The notes under the pieces: model-generated | Seen by the model: the letters and a program-made list of their open reading frames with translations, nothing else | Told to the model about the DNA's origin: nothing | Database searches by the model: none | Translations under genes and position numbers: made by a program | Shown: positions 13,959-22,049 of the stretch, piece after piece | How positions within the stretch are numbered: position 1 is the stretch's first letter | How the letters are laid out: each line of letters opens with the position of its first letter | Assembly: GCA_016926155.1 (NCBI GenBank) | Contig: JAFGPC010000041.1 | Location: 1-41,566 of the forward strand | Origin: Sedimentisphaerales bacterium | Lineage (GTDB): Bacteria; Planctomycetota; Phycisphaerae; Sedimentisphaerales; Anaerohalosphaeraceae | Direction of reading: 5' to 3' | DNA: 41,566 nt

Positions 13959-15143
13959 ATGAAAGTCAGCAAACGGGCACAGGGTGTGCCCCCTTCAGCG
14001 ACGATTGCGGTCACTTCACGAGCCAAAGAGATGAAGGCGCAGGGTGTAAATGTCATCAGTTTTGGGGCGGGCGAGCCGGATTTTGACACCCCTCAGTTCA
14101 TCAAGGATGCCGCCATCCAGGCCATGCAGGCCGGCAAGAACGGCTATACGGCCACACCCGGTATTATCGAACTGCGAACTGCGATAGCCGACAAGCTGAA
14201 AAGGGAAAATGGTCTCAATTATTCCCCGGAACAGATTGTCGTCAATATTGGCGCCAAGCATTCAATTTACGAAGTAATGCAGGCCACTCTGGACCCGGGA
14301 GATGAGGTTATTTTGCCCTGTCCGTACTGGGTAACTTACCCGGAAACAATCAAGCTGGCCGGAGCAACGGCGAAAATTATCCAGACGGATGCCTCCAACA
14401 GCTATAAAATGACGCCGGACCAGCTTAAATCCGCTATTACCCCAAAAACGGCTATGGTACTCATCAACAGCCCCAATAATCCCGGCGGATTCTCTTATAC
14501 GCCCGCAGAACTTGCTGCATTGGCCAAGGTGTTGGTCGGTACTGAAATCATGGTTCTCTCCGACGAAATTTACGAGAAACTGATCTACGGTTCCACTCGA
14601 TTCGTTAGCTTCGCTTCATTGAGCGAAGATGCTTTCAATCGCACCTTGACGGTTAACGGCCTCAGTAAAGCGTATGCCATGACCGGCTGGCGGGTCGGGT
14701 ACACGGCCGGTCCGTTAAACGTGATCAAGGCGATGGGCCGGCTCCAATCCCACATGACACAAAATGCTGTCGCGTTCGTACAATACGGGGCGCTGGCGGC
14801 CATGAAGGACACCTCCGATACGGTTGAGAAGATGCGTGTCGAATTCGAGAAACGGGCCAAAGTCATCGCCGAAAAGCTGAATGCCATCGAAGGATGTGTT
14901 TGTACCGAGCCGACCGGGGCTTTTTACGCATTTCCTGATGTTTCCGCCCATTTTGGCCGAACTATTAACAGGACCAAATTGACCGGAAGCATGGACTTTG
15001 CCCAAGCCCTTCTGGAACAGGCTAAGGTAGCGGTCGTCCCCGGTGAGCCCTTTGGCTGCCCGAACAATATCCGGCTCAGTTTTGCCTGTTCCATGGAACA
15101 GATCATCGAAGGAGTCGACAGGATCAAGAAATGGCTCAGCTAG
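13959..15143 (+). CDS. aspB: Aspartate aminotransferase (class I/II, PLP-dependent)
   Basis: The enzyme exchanges the amino group between aspartate and 2-oxoglutarate, using pyridoxal phosphate. The 394-aa length fits the family. Motifs: GAGEPDFDTP near the N-terminus, NSPNNPGG, SDEIYE, and NGLSKAYAMTGWRVGY with Lys237 as the expected PLP lysine; the C-terminal IRLSFA supplies the arginine that binds the substrate carboxylate. The sequence is closer to the AspB/subgroup I-gamma type than to E. coli AspC. The ATG at 13959 is preferred; a GTG at 13944 in the same frame is possible. It is the first gene of a five-gene run and overlaps the next gene by 13 bases. A different amino donor or acceptor cannot be excluded from sequence alone. 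Confidence 0.93.
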   Translation: MKVSKRAQGVPPSATIAVTSRAKEMKAQGVNVISFGAGEPDFDTPQFIKDAAIQAMQAGKNGYTATPGIIELRTAIADKLKRENGLNYSPEQIVVNIGAKHSIYEVMQATLDPGDEVILPCPYWVTYPETIKLAGATAKIIQTDASNSYKMTPDQLKSAITPKTAMVLINSPNNPGGFSYTPAELAALAKVLVGTEIMVLSDEIYEKLIYGSTRFVSFASLSEDAFNRTLTVNGLSKAYAMTGWRVGYTAGPLNVIKAMGRLQSHMTQNAVAFVQYGALAAMKDTSDTVEKMRVEFEKRAKVIAEKLNAIEGCVCTEPTGAFYAFPDVSAHFGRTINRTKLTGSMDFAQALLEQAKVAVVPGEPFGCPNNIRLSFACSMEQIIEGVDRIKKWLS

Positions 15144-18100
15144 AACTCGAAAACAAGCGTCACTCTTTCGCCGGATGGCTAATGGCCGTCTTCTGGGCAA
15201 TGATGCTGGTTTTTACTTTCTATGCGTGTACGCATATGGTCGCTGCCGGTGACACATGGGTAGCACTGGCCTGCGGACGTCATTTTGTCAATCATGGCGT
15301 GGATACGGTTGAGCCATTCAGCTTTAACAGCCATAAGGCGGGTCCCACCGAAGAGGATGTGGCCCGCTGGCCGGGCTGGGCCCAGACGATTACAAAGATT
15401 GTCGGGCTGAAAACTGTCCAGAAATGGCACCCTACCGGCTGGATCAACCAGAACTGGCTGACTCACGTCATTTTTTACAAATTAGTTAACTGGTTCGGTT
15501 CCAAGGATAATCCTAATTACAATGCGCTTGTATACTGGAAATTCGGGATATATCTTCTAAATGTCATTGCCGTATATTTTCTAGCTCGGTGGCTGGGCGT
15601 TTCGGTACCCGGTTCAGCGGCAGCGGCTTCAATCGCTCTATTGGTAGGACGAACATTTCTGGATATTCGACCCGCCGGTTTTTCCAATCTTCTGGTACCT
15701 GTCTATCTATTGGTATTGGTTCTTTCAGTCTATCGAAATATCCGTTATATCTGGTTGATCGTCCCGATCACCATCTTTTGGGCTAATGTTCATGGCGGAT
15801 ACCTATATGTTTTCGTCATGCTGGTCCCTTTCTTTTCATTACATCTTCTGTCTCTTGCTCTTCCATCAAACCGGTTTGTCCAACTCTCCAAGCCAAAAGA
15901 TCTTCTGCATATCGCAGGAGCCGGAACAGTGGCGTTTATGGCGATGGTATTATTCAATCCCTTTCATTTTACCAATCTGACACATACCTTCGAGATCAGC
16001 GTCAGCAAGCACGCCGAATCCTGGCGTACTGTCAATGAATGGCACGGTGCATTTCAATGGTCCAATCCGGTAGGAGAAAGCTTTCCTTTCCTGCTATTTT
16101 TTGTTTTGGGTTCGGTTGCTACGATTGTGTGGCTGATATGCCGACTCTTTCGCCCGTTATCTGCCGACAGGCCTATGCGGCAGTTGAAAGTACAGGACAG
16201 CCTATTTGAAATTCTCAGTCCGACATGCGGAATGATTATCGCCATAGGCGCCTTTCTCGCCCTTTACATTGCTTTCTCGGTTATCGGAGTAGGAGCCGCT
16301 AATATCACTATCGCCGCATTGTTTATAGGCATTCTGGTTCTCAGCGTCTTCTGGAGTATTCACTTCGTGTATTTTACCGGGCTCTTTACCATAATCATTC
16401 TTTCTCTGTCGCCGGTTAAAGAAGCCTATTTTGGTCGATATATCTATCCGTTTGTACTTATACCCACATTCGTGCTGCTTCATCTTTTTGCTCCGTTTTT
16501 CCCTCGTCGAAGCGGGTACAAACCGCTGCATCTGGCCTTCGCAGTCGGCACTGCCGTTACCGTCTTGTTAGTGATGCTGGCATGGATCAATCCGTTTGCA
16601 CCACAGATCAATCCGGACTCTCCTTCAAAAGTTACCTTTTTACAGGCACTCGGACACCTGCCGCATCTGGAACGGATGTGGTTCCCTACCTTTGAATATC
16701 AGGGAGAAAACCCAAAACCTTTCGATTACCCGAATTATTTCCCTGTGTTATACGGGGTGAATCTGGTAGCGATTGTACTCTATCTGCTATATCCCAATTT
16801 AAAAAACATGTTTTCTTTTTCTGATCAGACAAATGAATCTTCGGCATCCATTAAACCAAATGAAAGCGAGTTTACCTGGCCGCGAATTGATCTTCCGATT
16901 CTGACAATAGCCGCCCTGACTGTCTATATGGCGGTTCAATCGAGACGATTTATCCCCATCGCCGCCTCCGCTGCCGCTCCTGTCATTGCGCTATTTGTCG
17001 AACAATCCATTCGAATGCTAAGAGGTCGATGGAGTTATAACAAGGACCGCCAATTGACCCTGCCCAAACTATCCCCCTTTGCTCGAACTATAATCCTGTG
17101 TATTGGTTTGTCGATTACAGTGGTTTGCGGGATCACCTGGAGTGCGAAATATAAACGCATTTATCTCAATCCCTGGCCTGCCGACGCTCAACGGGATTCT
17201 GTTTTCATGCGAATGACCGCTTCCAATGTCAAGCCCTTTGATGTCTGTACTTTTATTCGGCAAAATCAACTAAGCGGCAGAGTATTCAACTACTGGACCG
17301 AGGGAGGCGCCATCGCATGGGGACAGACACCCGATCCACAAACCGGTAGAACCCCTCTGCAGTTGTTCATGGACGGTCGCGCCCAGGCCGCCTACAACCA
17401 TGACAAATTTGAAACCTGGCGATATATCAAAGGAGGCGGGCAACCCATCCAGGAAGCAGCCATACAACGGCGCAAACTCACCCTTGAAGACTTTAAAAAA
17501 TCGGGGGAATGGATCGACGAGCAACTCCAACAGCTTGATGTCTGGGTTGTTCTTATGCCTTCCATGGAAGTGCCCTATCCGGGAATGTCACTGGATACCA
17601 TTATTTCCAAGCCCAATTATTACTTCGTCTATGCCCTTCAGACCACAGGCACCTGGGCCATGGCTTATATGGATGATCAGCAGTATCTGTTTGTCAGTAT
17701 GAAAACACCGCAAGGGGAAAAACTGATCGCCGATCTGTTGGCTGATAAATTGGTATTTCCCAATGAATATACGAGAAATCTGACCCTGGCGAATGCCTAC
17801 TTACGCTATAATGATCAGGCCCTGGCCATGAAAGGATTCGAATACGCAAAAAAGGCTTTTGAACTATATCCATCCCAGACCTCGGCGCTAATGCTGCATT
17901 ACAGGGCATGGCAGCATCCATACCTGCGTAAATTTATAATTGAGGTATTTCAACCATATGTAGATGATTTTATTATCAACCAGAATCAATATGCCCAAGA
18001 GGGAGGCTATGCCGATCGGCTTCTGGCGGCATTGCTCGGCAGTCAGCGACTGGCATCCCATAGGATGTCCACGGATCCGGACCGTGCCAGGCAATACATG

Positions 18101-18160
18101 GAATTTGAAAAGAGGTATCATTCCGTGCCGATCGAGTTGGCCGTACAGGCAAAGTGGTGA
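15131..18160 (+). CDS. Polytopic membrane protein, GT-C glycosyltransferase-like, with soluble C-terminal region (1009 aa)
   Basis: About a dozen membrane segments occupy residues 15 to 670, followed by a large soluble region. After the first segment comes AAGDTWVALACG (Asp41) with VDTVEPFSF, then WINQNWLTHVIFY. This layout, an acidic residue just outside the first segment followed by a Trp/His-rich loop, is typical of GT-C-fold enzymes that take sugars from lipid-linked donors. The C-terminal part includes NQLSGRVFNYWTEGGAI and PLQLFMDGRAQAAY, and near the end a helical repeat-like stretch (residues about 870-920). The start lies within the aspartate aminotransferase gene (13-base overlap), so translation is probably coupled. 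Next to it is a family 2 glycosyltransferase, which could make the lipid-linked sugar donor. The exact family is uncertain; glycosyl transfer is inference. Confidence 0.72.
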   Translation: MAQLELENKRHSFAGWLMAVFWAMMLVFTFYACTHMVAAGDTWVALACGRHFVNHGVDTVEPFSFNSHKAGPTEEDVARWPGWAQTITKIVGLKTVQKWHPTGWINQNWLTHVIFYKLVNWFGSKDNPNYNALVYWKFGIYLLNVIAVYFLARWLGVSVPGSAAAASIALLVGRTFLDIRPAGFSNLLVPVYLLVLVLSVYRNIRYIWLIVPITIFWANVHGGYLYVFVMLVPFFSLHLLSLALPSNRFVQLSKPKDLLHIAGAGTVAFMAMVLFNPFHFTNLTHTFEISVSKHAESWRTVNEWHGAFQWSNPVGESFPFLLFFVLGSVATIVWLICRLFRPLSADRPMRQLKVQDSLFEILSPTCGMIIAIGAFLALYIAFSVIGVGAANITIAALFIGILVLSVFWSIHFVYFTGLFTIIILSLSPVKEAYFGRYIYPFVLIPTFVLLHLFAPFFPRRSGYKPLHLAFAVGTAVTVLLVMLAWINPFAPQINPDSPSKVTFLQALGHLPHLERMWFPTFEYQGENPKPFDYPNYFPVLYGVNLVAIVLYLLYPNLKNMFSFSDQTNESSASIKPNESEFTWPRIDLPILTIAALTVYMAVQSRRFIPIAASAAAPVIALFVEQSIRMLRGRWSYNKDRQLTLPKLSPFARTIILCIGLSITVVCGITWSAKYKRIYLNPWPADAQRDSVFMRMTASNVKPFDVCTFIRQNQLSGRVFNYWTEGGAIAWGQTPDPQTGRTPLQLFMDGRAQAAYNHDKFETWRYIKGGGQPIQEAAIQRRKLTLEDFKKSGEWIDEQLQQLDVWVVLMPSMEVPYPGMSLDTIISKPNYYFVYALQTTGTWAMAYMDDQQYLFVSMKTPQGEKLIADLLADKLVFPNEYTRNLTLANAYLRYNDQALAMKGFEYAKKAFELYPSQTSALMLHYRAWQHPYLRKFIIEVFQPYVDDFIINQNQYAQEGGYADRLLAALLGSQRLASHRMSTDPDRARQYMEFEKRYHSVPIELAVQAKW

Positions 18161-18166
18161 CCAGGC

Positions 18167-18916
18167 ATGCATTCGAATCACCCTTCCATGACAGAAACCG
18201 TACCGGAACGCGACAATTTGTCGATCAGCGTTTTTTTCCCCTGCCACAACGAAGAAGAATCTATTGAAGACCTTGTTCGAAGCACTTATGCCTTCCTCTC
18301 TGAAAGAAGCGATGATTTCGAAATCATTATTGTTGATGACGGCAGTATCGACCAGACCGGTAAGATTGCCGACCGACTCACACAAGAGTTTTCTGAGGTC
18401 CGCGTTATTCACCATCCATCCAATCGCGGTTATGGCGATGCCCTGCAATCGGGTTTTCGGGCCGCCACGAAAGAATGGGTCTTCTATACCGACGGTGACG
18501 CCCAGTTTGACATTTCCGAATTGGATGCTATTCTATCATTGAGACAACAGGTCGATATAGTCAGTTGCTACCGTATGAATCGGCAGGAAGGCTGGTCGAG
18601 GAGATTCAATGCATGGTGCTGGACGACGCTGGTCGGCCTGTTATTGGGATTTCGATTGAAAGATGTGGATTGCGCCTTTAAGCTGTTTCGTAACAGTATT
18701 TTTGAGGGTATGGAAATGAAAAGTACCGGCGCCCTGATCGATGCGGAGATCCTGGCTCGGGCCAAACATAAAGGTTATTCAATTACCCAGCATGGGGTGC
18801 ATCACTATCCCCGCCGTGCCGGCCAGTCCTCCGGCGCAAAGTTGTCGGTGATTTTACGAGCGTTTAAAGAGTTGTTCCGCCTACGGAAAGAAATTATCAG
18901 TGAGTCTCAACCATGA
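18167..18916 (+). CDS. Family 2 glycosyltransferase, polyprenyl-phosphate sugar synthase type
   Basis: The 249-aa protein has the GT-A fold signatures of dolichyl/polyprenyl-phosphate sugar synthases: ISVFFPCHNEEESIEDL at the N-terminus, VDDGSIDQTG, a DGDAQFD metal-binding motif at about residue 109, and VDCAFKLFR later, where the acceptor-lipid enzymes have a conserved D-x-x-C-G/A-F-K pattern. No C-terminal membrane segments are present, so it is the soluble type or is tethered to membrane by its partner. The gene starts seven bases after the large membrane protein and its stop overlaps the start of alanine racemase (ATGA), so the genes belong to one operon. A likely role is to charge a lipid with a sugar for the GT-C-like neighbour. 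A start at 18188 is also possible. Confidence 0.87.
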   Translation: MHSNHPSMTETVPERDNLSISVFFPCHNEEESIEDLVRSTYAFLSERSDDFEIIIVDDGSIDQTGKIADRLTQEFSEVRVIHHPSNRGYGDALQSGFRAATKEWVFYTDGDAQFDISELDAILSLRQQVDIVSCYRMNRQEGWSRRFNAWCWTTLVGLLLGFRLKDVDCAFKLFRNSIFEGMEMKSTGALIDAEILARAKHKGYSITQHGVHHYPRRAGQSSGAKLSVILRAFKELFRLRKEIISESQP

Positions 18917-20064
18917 AAGTGTACCCCGCAGAGACACTAATCAGACCGGATCTTCAGGCCCACATTTTTTCGGAAGCCTTGCTTCATAATGTGCAGGCCT
19001 TACGCAGTTTATGTGCGGAAGGAACCTACTTTTGTGCCGTTGTCAAAGCCAATGCTTACGGACACGGCCTTCCGGAAATTGTGAACATTCTGCGTCAGGC
19101 CGAGGTGGACTTTTTTGCCGTAGCCAGTATCTACGAAGCAATTCATATTGCTTCCATAGTACAGGAGATTCCAACTCTGATTCTTGAGCCAATCCACCCC
19201 GCCCAGCCCCCGGATCAAATTGTTGCGGCAGCCCGAAACGGATTTCATTGTGTCGTGGCCACTTCCGAGGCGATTGATTTTCTTTCGGATATTCTGGCCG
19301 GCTCCGGTGATGTGCTGGATCTGCATGTCAATGTGGAATCGGGCATGGGACGATGCGGAATCGATCCGGAGCAGGCAGCCTCGCTCATTCGTCGGATTGA
19401 TCGGTGCTCTAATGCCCGTCTGGCGGGTGTCTATACGCACTTTGCCACCGCGGATGAAGACGATCTGTCTTACGCCTGGCAACAACTGGAGCAATTTGAG
19501 CGATTCCTTGATCAAAATCGAATCCGGCATCGAGAGGATGTGCTTGTCCATGCGGCCAACAGCGCCGCCACAATTAAAATTCCTCAAGCCCACTTTGATA
19601 TGGTTCGTTGCGGTATTTCGATGTATGGATACTATTCACGACGCATGGCTCATCCACCTATTTCACTGCAACCTGTAATGCGGCTACAGGCCCCTGTCGT
19701 ACAAATCAAGCATCTTCCGGCGGGACATTCGGTTAGTTATGGACGGTCGTTCGTTCCGTTTCGTGATACCATCGCCGCTTTAATCCCATTGGGTTATGCC
19801 GATGGATACTGGAGGTGTTTTTCCAACCGCGCCAGGATGAAGGTTGGAAACGCATTTGTCCCCGTGATCGGTCGGGTTTGCATGGATCAGCTTTTACTAG
19901 ACGTAACGGATGTGCCCGACATCGCCCCGGGACAAATGGTTACCGTAATCGATAACGAACATGATTCGCCCTGTGGCGTTTACGCTCTGGCAGATTTGGC
20001 GGGAACGATCTGTTATGAGATTCTGACCTGCGTACACGCACACATTAATCGGATTGTTCATTGA
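18913..20064 (+). CDS. alr: Alanine racemase
   Basis: The enzyme interconverts L- and D-alanine with PLP, supplying D-alanine for peptidoglycan. The 383-aa length is normal. VKANAYGHG carries the PLP lysine (Lys45), and SYGRSF carries Tyr276, the expected second catalytic base. GYADGYWR and GRVCMDQLLLDVT are the family's C-terminal beta-domain motifs. The start overlaps the stop of the glycosyltransferase by ATGA. In this setting it could supply D-alanine to a dedicated product rather than only to the cell wall; another substrate amino acid is possible, since the family includes broad-spectrum racemases. Confidence 0.95.
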   Translation: MKVYPAETLIRPDLQAHIFSEALLHNVQALRSLCAEGTYFCAVVKANAYGHGLPEIVNILRQAEVDFFAVASIYEAIHIASIVQEIPTLILEPIHPAQPPDQIVAAARNGFHCVVATSEAIDFLSDILAGSGDVLDLHVNVESGMGRCGIDPEQAASLIRRIDRCSNARLAGVYTHFATADEDDLSYAWQQLEQFERFLDQNRIRHREDVLVHAANSAATIKIPQAHFDMVRCGISMYGYYSRRMAHPPISLQPVMRLQAPVVQIKHLPAGHSVSYGRSFVPFRDTIAALIPLGYADGYWRCFSNRARMKVGNAFVPVIGRVCMDQLLLDVTDVPDIAPGQMVTVIDNEHDSPCGVYALADLAGTICYEILTCVHAHINRIVH

Positions 20065-20099: not shown

Positions 20100-22049
20100 A
20101 TGACAGAACCAACATACAACTTATTCATATACGGCTCCCTGCGAGATCCAAATATCTTCCGCTCCGTATCCGGATTTGGTTTTACTTTAAAACCTTCTCA
20201 CAAATCCGATGATTTGCTACTCGGGGAGCTGGCTTTATTGCCTGGCTATCGGCGGGTCAGCCCGGACAATGTGTATTGGTACGCCGTGGCCGATCAACAA
20301 GCTAAAATTGAAGGTTTTATCATCCATGACCTGCCACTTTCGGCCATGAAGGAAATCGACCGATACGAAGGGAAGTATTATGAAAGAGAGACCGTTACCG
20401 TAAATACCGCTTCCGGGCCGATCCATGCCCAGGCCTTTTTAGCTCGCCCTAAGGCAATGCGAAAACAGTTTGGCGATCGGTTTCATGTAAATCTTATTCA
20501 TGAACTGTGGCTCCGCAAGCGGATCGAAAAGGTGTTTGAACAACACACCCGACCGGGAGAACACTCTCCGGACGCCGATATGGAGCGCCGGGCCAGAAGA
20601 GAATTGTTGGGCACCACCGAACGCGATCTGGTTGTCAGCCATCTGGGCAGCGATGTGGTCAGCGATTTTTATCTCCGTCACGAACTCGACCGTCCTTATC
20701 CGACCATCAAGCACTTGTATGAGGAAAAGGAAGCCGAATCGTTTATATACAATTACCTAGTGATGGTTGTCAAACATGTCCTGCTGAACCAGTTCGAACG
20801 TCTTCTATATGAACGATATCGCTTTGACATTGAACGTCTCAGCCAGTCGCATCGCTTCTTTACCCGAACTGTCAGCCTTCTTGCGGCCTTGCGTATGCTT
20901 AACGCCAATACAGGCCCAATCGATCTGATCCTGCAGAGATGTCTGGAATCTATGCCTCCATGTACTGATTTTGATTTGATCGACTACGTCAAATACGCCA
21001 TCAGCGTCGCGGATAGTATTTTCGATGCCCGTGTCGCCCACAGCGAACTGGAACGGATCCGCGCCAATAAACAACCGGGACTGATCCCGATGGGCGCCGA
21101 ACTGGAGTTGAGCAATCTCGGTTTCCGAGCCGTGGAAAAGACACAGACCAACCGGGACCAAACCTTCGACGGCTTCCGCTATTTTCACGATTTTGCCCTG
21201 GACGTTCTGACCTGGAAACTGGGCGGCTACATCGACGACCATTCCGGAGAATCAACCCCTAAGCGAAGGGGATTTCTTGAATTGGCGCCGGGTCGTCTGA
21301 ATATTGCAGGAGAATTATCAAAGCCGGCTACGGGCGATCCATGGATACTCAATCAACTCATCCGAGAAATCACCGAGTTCTATCCCATCGAACCACACAG
21401 TCTGCACCTGTCGTTCCAGTTGCGAAAACAGCAACGCGCCAATCCTCACGTATTGCCCCCGGCATTCGTCAAATGTCTTCTGGCACTCGGAGGCGGCACA
21501 CAGGAACATACGCAGGGTCGCCTGTGGGTCAGTCGCATGGCCCATTCCGAAATTCGACAAAACACTTTCGGCGAAGAGCTTGTTTTTGCTCGTCGCAGTG
21601 TTCGGCACTCTTCGCTTACTTCGGATGAGATTGCCATGAAACGGCCCGGATACGCAATCACTCACGTGCAGCAGTACAAGTTTATCCGACTGGAGCGCCG
21701 GGCCAATTATGAGCCGCTCATTATGGCATTGAAAGGTTTACAACTGGCCTATAATCCGGGGGATTATCTGACGGCCGCCCAATTGTCTCAGAGCCTTCGT
21801 CTTCGCTTACAATATGAACAGATCAAGGAATGGGCGGAAAATCCGGAACCACTGAGTCGACGAACGCGCGGCCGTTTTCTTGATGCAATCAAGAAGGGGC
21901 TTATGGACGAAGGGCACCACCGTCCCGCCCACAAACTGCACTATATCGACTGGGCGCTGGGGGCTATTGATATACAGCTTCGACTATTTAATAAAGAAGT
22001 TGAGCGGCGCAACATTTATATCGATGAACTGGCCACAAAACGTCGTTAG
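20100..22049 (+). CDS. Fusion of AIG2-like gamma-glutamyl-cyclotransferase domain with a probable amidoligase domain (649 aa)
   Basis: Residues 1-125 form an AIG2/GGCT-like domain: FIYGSLRDP (Tyr11-Leu14) is the substrate-binding loop and EIDRYEGKYYERE (Glu90 in YEG) gives the expected catalytic acid. Such domains cleave gamma-glutamyl amide bonds by forming 5-oxoproline. Residues about 125-325 are helical and unrecognised. Residues about 330-520 look like a glutamine-synthetase/GCS-like amidoligase: GAELELSNLG (about 332-341) matches the G-x-E-x-E metal motif, FLELAPGRLN (about 391) fits a later acidic strand, and HSLHLSFQ (about 433) fits the S-x-H-x-H/S strand. Amidoligases join an amine to a carboxylate using ATP. 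Known amidoligases of this class often occur beside AIG2-like proteins; a fusion of both in one chain is notable. The amidoligase call is made by eye from weak motifs. It lies 35 bases after alr. Confidence 0.72.
   Translation: MTEPTYNLFIYGSLRDPNIFRSVSGFGFTLKPSHKSDDLLLGELALLPGYRRVSPDNVYWYAVADQQAKIEGFIIHDLPLSAMKEIDRYEGKYYERETVTVNTASGPIHAQAFLARPKAMRKQFGDRFHVNLIHELWLRKRIEKVFEQHTRPGEHSPDADMERRARRELLGTTERDLVVSHLGSDVVSDFYLRHELDRPYPTIKHLYEEKEAESFIYNYLVMVVKHVLLNQFERLLYERYRFDIERLSQSHRFFTRTVSLLAALRMLNANTGPIDLILQRCLESMPPCTDFDLIDYVKYAISVADSIFDARVAHSELERIRANKQPGLIPMGAELELSNLGFRAVEKTQTNRDQTFDGFRYFHDFALDVLTWKLGGYIDDHSGESTPKRRGFLELAPGRLNIAGELSKPATGDPWILNQLIREITEFYPIEPHSLHLSFQLRKQQRANPHVLPPAFVKCLLALGGGTQEHTQGRLWVSRMAHSEIRQNTFGEELVFARRSVRHSSLTSDEIAMKRPGYAITHVQQYKFIRLERRANYEPLIMALKGLQLAYNPGDYLTAAQLSQSLRLRLQYEQIKEWAENPEPLSRRTRGRFLDAIKKGLMDEGHHRPAHKLHYIDWALGAIDIQLRLFNKEVERRNIYIDELATKRR

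Follow-up and report, generated by a model that had tools for sequence, protein, structure and literature searches.

Can a single polypeptide carry one activity that forms a gamma-glutamyl bond and another that breaks it? The question is raised by a 649-residue protein encoded in the window (the whole stretch of DNA that was analysed, 41,566 nucleotides), which a first-pass annotation had read as a fusion of a gamma-glutamyl cyclotransferase domain and a probable amidoligase. A single reading frame covers all three regions of the protein, both here and in its homologs, and the motifs lie where they had been claimed (YGSL at residues 11–14, Glu90 in YEG, GAELEL, FLELAPGR at 392–399 and HSLHLSF at 433–439; Table 1). 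On balance, we consider it probable, if well short of certain, that the protein is a cytoplasmic bifunctional gamma-glutamyl-amide enzyme with two putative active sites.

Table 1. Positions of the fusion gene, its domains and motifs, and three upstream neighbours in the window (residue numbers are those of the fusion protein)
Feature	Positions	Strand	Basis
Large membrane protein, 1009 aa, GT-C-like by eye, conserved neighbour	15131..18160	+	
GT2 polyprenyl-phosphate-sugar-synthase-like glycosyltransferase, conserved neighbour	18167..18916	+	
Alanine racemase, 35 bases upstream of the fusion gene, the genome's only Ala_racemase_C match	18913..20064	+	
Whole fusion gene (GGCT – helical region – GS-fold ligase-like domain), 649 aa	20100..22049	+	ATG-started ORF, full-length homologs
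GGACT/AIG2-like gamma-glutamyl cyclotransferase domain, residues ~5–118	20112..20453	+	Pfam PF06094, Foldseek, VIA
YGSL substrate-binding loop, residues 11–14	20130..20141	+	YG[ST] in 32/32 homologs
Glu90 (in YEG), presumed cyclotransferase catalytic acid/base	20367..20369	+	32/32 homologs; family catalytic Glu per PMC7022552
Helical linker region, residues ~130–323	20487..21068	+	DSSP on predicted models
Predicted glutamine-synthetase-fold (carboxylate-amine ligase-like) domain, residues 327–649	21078..22046	+	Foldseek, VIA, BFVD phage amidoligases
GAELEL (residues 332–337), G-h-E-x-E; E334 and E336 presumed Mg/ATP ligands	21093..21110	+	Each Glu in 31/32 homologs; PMC2588565
WKLGGYIDDH (D379, D380, H381)	21213..21242	+	D379 30/32, D380 29/32; strand preceding FLELAPG
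GFLELAPGR (E394)	21270..21296	+	30/32 homologs
HSLHLSF (residues 433–439; H433, H436)	21396..21416	+	H433 32/32, H436 30/32
YKFIRL (R530), likened to E-h-R of GCS2/Amidoligase_2	21675..21692	+	R530 32/32; by-eye comparison with L093/L115

The cyclotransferase assignment, which had been called firm, is confirmed by profile, fold and residue conservation. The Pfam GGACT profile (PF06094) matches the window's protein with 43.1 bits against a cut-off of 22.8 (E = 7.4e-11) and, in a scan with E up to 1, matches 35 of the 37 close homologs. Foldseek pairs the N-terminal domain with At5g39720 and human GGCT (probability 1.00), human GGACT is also among the fold matches, and the VIA Z-scores are 13.4, 11.9 and 10.4 against 2g0q, 3cry and 3juc, respectively. 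By a published rule, GGCT-fold enzymes combine a YGSL motif with a catalytic Glu, and gamma-glutamylamines are substrates of GGACT (PMC7022552). All 32 diverse homologs, which span 35–100% identity, have the YG[ST] loop and Glu90. The putative gamma-glutamyl(amine) cyclotransferase domain is very likely active.

An unrecognised helical domain of about 200 residues had been proposed to join the two outer parts. This description proved accurate, as residues ~130–323 are helical by DSSP on the predicted models and match no family in Pfam, PHROGs or PDB sequences.

The amidoligase assignment, put forward as the weaker of the two, stood at the level of the predicted fold and fell at the level of the Amidoligase_2 and GCS2 profiles. 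Structure prediction, suggested as a check against GCS and amidoligase folds, returned a glutamine-synthetase (GS) fold in both a full-length AlphaFold model (37 sequences, pLDDT 79.0) and a model of residues 128–649 built from a more diverse alignment (32 sequences, pLDDT 87.3, pTM 0.89). The ligase region had been drawn at residues 325–530; the GS fold does begin at residue 327, but it extends to residue 649. Foldseek matches the domain to PafA and Dop with probabilities of 0.96–1.00, at E-values of only ~0.01–0.05. By VIA-align the nearest structure is Dop (Z 13.3, rmsd 4.9, 253 residues aligned), with PafA at Z 12.8, a YbdK-type ligase at 12.4 and bifunctional glutathione synthetase at 10.7, and all 50 of the 50 VIA matches listed are GS-fold enzymes. 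Phage amidoligases are the top named matches in the viral library (BFVD). The structural match begins at residue 327, close to the start of Dop (residue 1) and of YbdK (residue 10), and so the GhExE strand at the N-terminus of Dop and YbdK lands by or on GAELEL. This motif marks the carboxylate-amine ligase branch as its signature (PMC2588565), and it is present and conserved here as G332-A-E334-L-E336. The predicted models support the reading of residues 327–649 as a GS-fold carboxylate-amine ligase-like domain.

Profile searches of the C-terminal domain found no match in the Pfam, NCBIfam, PHROGs, PADLOC or PDB-sequence libraries. Amidoligase_2 (PF12224) matched neither the window's protein nor anything else in its own genome, the GCS2 (PF04107) and Pup_ligase (PF03136) profiles did not match the window's protein, and none of these three profiles was detected in the C-terminal part of the 32 homologs at E up to 10. 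Weak matches to Thoc2 were judged to be chance. Sets for Amidoligase_2, GCS2 and YbdK-type ligases were built locally for HMM-HMM comparison, together with 13 control families; the hhalign comparisons with all three sets, for Amidoligase_2 and GCS2 another check that had been suggested, were not significant and did not exceed those with the unrelated controls. The best of the non-significant GCS2 and Amidoligase_2 alignments pair GAELE with GvEhE and HSLHLSF with the matching His motif, which is suggestive only. Because no sequence profile detects it, we regard the C-terminal domain as a sequence-divergent branch, and not as a member of Amidoligase_2, GCS2 or Pup_ligase. A separate GCS2-type glutamate-amine ligase (L115, G000:C49:12565-13401) lies on another contig of the window's genome, where it is the sole GCS2 match.

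The residues of the putative ligase site are among the most conserved positions of the protein. Of the putative metal/ATP residues, the acidic ones, whose conservation had been named as a check, are retained: E334, E336, D379 and E394 are each kept in 30 or 31 of the 32 diverse homologs and D380 in 29. H436, a further putative metal/ATP residue, is likewise kept in 30 or 31, and H433 and R530 are invariant. Both putative active sites are intact in ~30 of the 32, the window's protein included. The exceptions are mainly L091 and L092, from the two family f15 genomes in the sample, where D379, D380, E394, H436 and part of GhExE are gone and the YG and E90 are retained. Where the motifs are present, conservation is highest in the GS-fold domain (window's protein against L074: 49% identity in the GS-fold part versus 35% in the GGCT part); against L091, where they are lost, this excess is gone (37% versus 41%). 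Since the same motifs occur in other GS-fold families, loss is the simpler reading of the f15 state, although the tree was midpoint-rooted on the f15 branch and its rooting cannot settle loss versus ancestral state. With degenerate GS-fold residues and an intact GGCT motif, L091 and L092 constitute a natural ligase-minus control.

Matches on intact contigs cover the whole protein, indicating that the fusion is a standing architecture and not an assembly accident. Homologs at 52–69% identity occur in 39 of 59 close genomes (full length in most of the 39) and also in 23 named Planctomycetota contigs, and full-length homologs at 35–42% identity are found across other Phycisphaerae families. A profile search detected the family in 74 of 298 Phycisphaerae genomes; G237 and G151 match in the GGCT part only, and so ~72 of the 298 have the fusion. 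The same search of sampled Phycisphaerae found no fusion in families f2, f4 and f5. A phylum-wide draw yielded matches in 7 of 392 genomes, all from the window's own family, and none was seen outside Phycisphaerae in the samples searched. A phage or plasmid origin was considered and rejected, as the viral contig, phage and plasmid collections held no relative. In a maximum-likelihood tree of 32 members, the taxonomic families were tracked with the minimum number of changes, a pattern in the sequences that fits vertical inheritance.

We then ask what the genes around the fusion say about its substrate. In families f1 and f7, the fusion gene is the last in a tight same-strand cluster, with gaps commonly of 3–50 bases, that holds an Asp-type aminotransferase (at many loci), the membrane protein and the GT2 enzyme, with alanine racemase added in f1. 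The 1009-aa membrane protein has no match in Pfam, NCBIfam or PDB sequences. The aminotransferase, membrane protein and GT2 neighbours are conserved in Sedimentisphaerales only, and the membrane protein is kept also in f2, f4 and f5, where no fusion was found. In f12 and f16 the neighbours differ, and include radical SAM, Ser/Thr kinase, alpha-glucan phosphorylase and glycogen debranching enzyme genes. The phosphorylase gene is near the fusion in f16 (L078, L079, L077, L086 and L083), with several loci divergent to a radical SAM gene, and a debranching gene is near it in L033, L074, L075 and L080. Alanine racemase was rejected as a required partner, as no alr match occurs in any of the five f7 genomes of the sample that carry the fusion. 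A function based on the operon was also rejected, given the lineage-specific neighbours, the occurrence of the membrane protein without the fusion and the differing f12 and f16 contexts. Consequently, the neighbourhood does not pin down the substrate. The subunit that usually recycles 5-oxoproline, PxpA, is absent in 59 of 59 relatives and was detected in control genomes; therefore, any 5-oxoproline predicted to form in these relatives would not be recycled by PxpABC.

The analysis shows the domain identities, the fold and the conservation; we infer that ATP is used, in which direction the GS-fold site works, what it acts on and how the two sites are coupled. The earlier suggestion of a gamma-glutamyl tag that is put on and later taken off, or of a proof-reading step, would be an inference of the same kind. 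In the proposed mechanism, the GS-fold site (residues 327–649), probably with Mg-ATP held via E334, E336, E394 and H436, would phosphorylate the gamma-carboxylate of glutamate and then join the activated carboxylate to an amine. The GGACT-type domain, with its YGSL loop and Glu90, would cyclise the gamma-glutamyl-amine to 5-oxoproline and release the free amine. Cyclotransferases act only on glutamyl units whose alpha-amino group is free. Therefore, if both domains share one compound, the donor would be free glutamate, as in GCS, GmaS and the gamma-glutamyl-polyamine synthetases, and not protein-bound Glu as for PafA. An unregulated pair of ligase and cyclotransferase would burn ATP to 5-oxoproline, as in glutathione synthetase deficiency (PMC1852094), and one therefore has to assume regulation, a separation in time, editing or channelling. 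The most likely use would be a controlled, reversible gamma-glutamylation of some amine metabolite or an amino-sugar, either to protect and deprotect it or for editing. We tentatively propose, with more doubt than confidence, that the protein is the founding member of a new family of GS-fold ligases with a cis-fused eraser, which would attach a gamma-glutamyl group to an amine and take it off that same amine again, across a large part of the class Phycisphaerae.

The same ATP cost to a same-bond pair, unless regulated, also speaks for a relay (PMC1852094), whereby the GGCT domain would act on a gamma-glutamyl compound, imported or recycled, to free an amine or amino acid, which the ligase would put on another carboxylate. 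A fusion with a large helical spacer suits such channelling as well as it suits reversal; however, the neighbourhood points to no second substrate, and we consider a relay unlikely. Alternatively, the GS-fold domain could be a Dop-like hydrolase, with both domains degrading gamma-glutamyl amides of different kinds. Dop is its nearest solved fold, and PafA and Dop place a ligase and a hydrolase on one fold with a switch of a few residues (PMC7947786), but the Z-score of Dop ties with that of PafA and is near that of YbdK, so fold comparison cannot decide between them, and Dop-type hydrolysis is rare and derived in the superfamily. A hydrolase seems to us quite improbable.

The losses in L091 and L092, with the GGCT motif kept, indicate that the C-terminal domain can persist without its active site, as would be expected if it served as a scaffold or sensor, a catalytically dead GS fold through which the GGCT domain is regulated. 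Yet ~30 of the 32 homologs keep the whole putative site and have their highest conservation in the GS-fold part, which makes a dead domain highly improbable as a general account.

With opposed activities predicted in one chain, the protein could be purified and used to test directly how gamma-glutamyl groups are added and removed and how the two steps are coordinated. Its ligase-like domain would widen the glutamine-synthetase fold to a sequence family missed by all of the profile libraries searched, and the fusion is a chromosomal gene retained by many members of a bacterial class with poorly known cell biology.

Several known systems share parts of this arrangement. In butirosin biosynthesis, BtrJ and BtrG form a protection-deprotection pair in which a ligase adds a gamma-glutamyl group and a cyclotransferase removes it; BtrJ is an ATP-grasp enzyme, and the two are separate proteins. 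The N-terminal domain resembles GGACT in its fold, YGSL and catalytic Glu, whereas the solved chains that it matches are single-domain proteins of ~150 residues and here it is one part of a 649-aa fusion. PafA and Dop, the Pup ligase and depupylase, are the best structural matches of residues 327–649 (Z ~13) and share GhExE, but no sequence similarity to the fusion's domain was detected, the window's genome has no Pup_ligase match, and a protein substrate is unlikely for the fusion if the GGCT site acts on the ligase product. Adjacent PafA/Dop-like genes (L108, G138:C28, and L107) were observed in one Phycisphaerae genome (79% complete), one of which has a TGA inside the matched stretch; among 120 sampled genomes of the class, this is the only one with a match. 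The GCS2/YbdK glutamate-amine ligases are alike in their GS fold (Z 12), GhExE and an E-h-R-like motif near R530, yet PF04107 does not detect the fusion's domain.

In Firmicutes, genes for GS-fold ligases adjoin genes for Aig2-type cyclotransferases, for which peptide or metabolite synthesis was proposed (PMC2588565), and amidoligase and cyclotransferase cassettes occur in phages (PMC10945688) and prophages (PMC11318856). These pairs keep together the same two predicted activities, but each activity has its own gene and the ligase is of the Amidoligase_2 type; the pairs are frequently located on mobile elements, and genes for an ATP-grasp protein and a glutamine amidotransferase sometimes accompany them. 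In contrast, the Phycisphaerae protein is one polypeptide, chromosomal and apparently vertically inherited, and Amidoligase_2 profiles miss its ligase domain. Judged apart from the 2009 amidoligase survey (PMC3268129), where a fusion may be described, three features appear to be new: the two domains are fused in cis around a helical spacer, the fusion is chromosomal and vertically distributed, and its ligase domain lies, by profile, outside Amidoligase_2, GCS2 and Pup_ligase.
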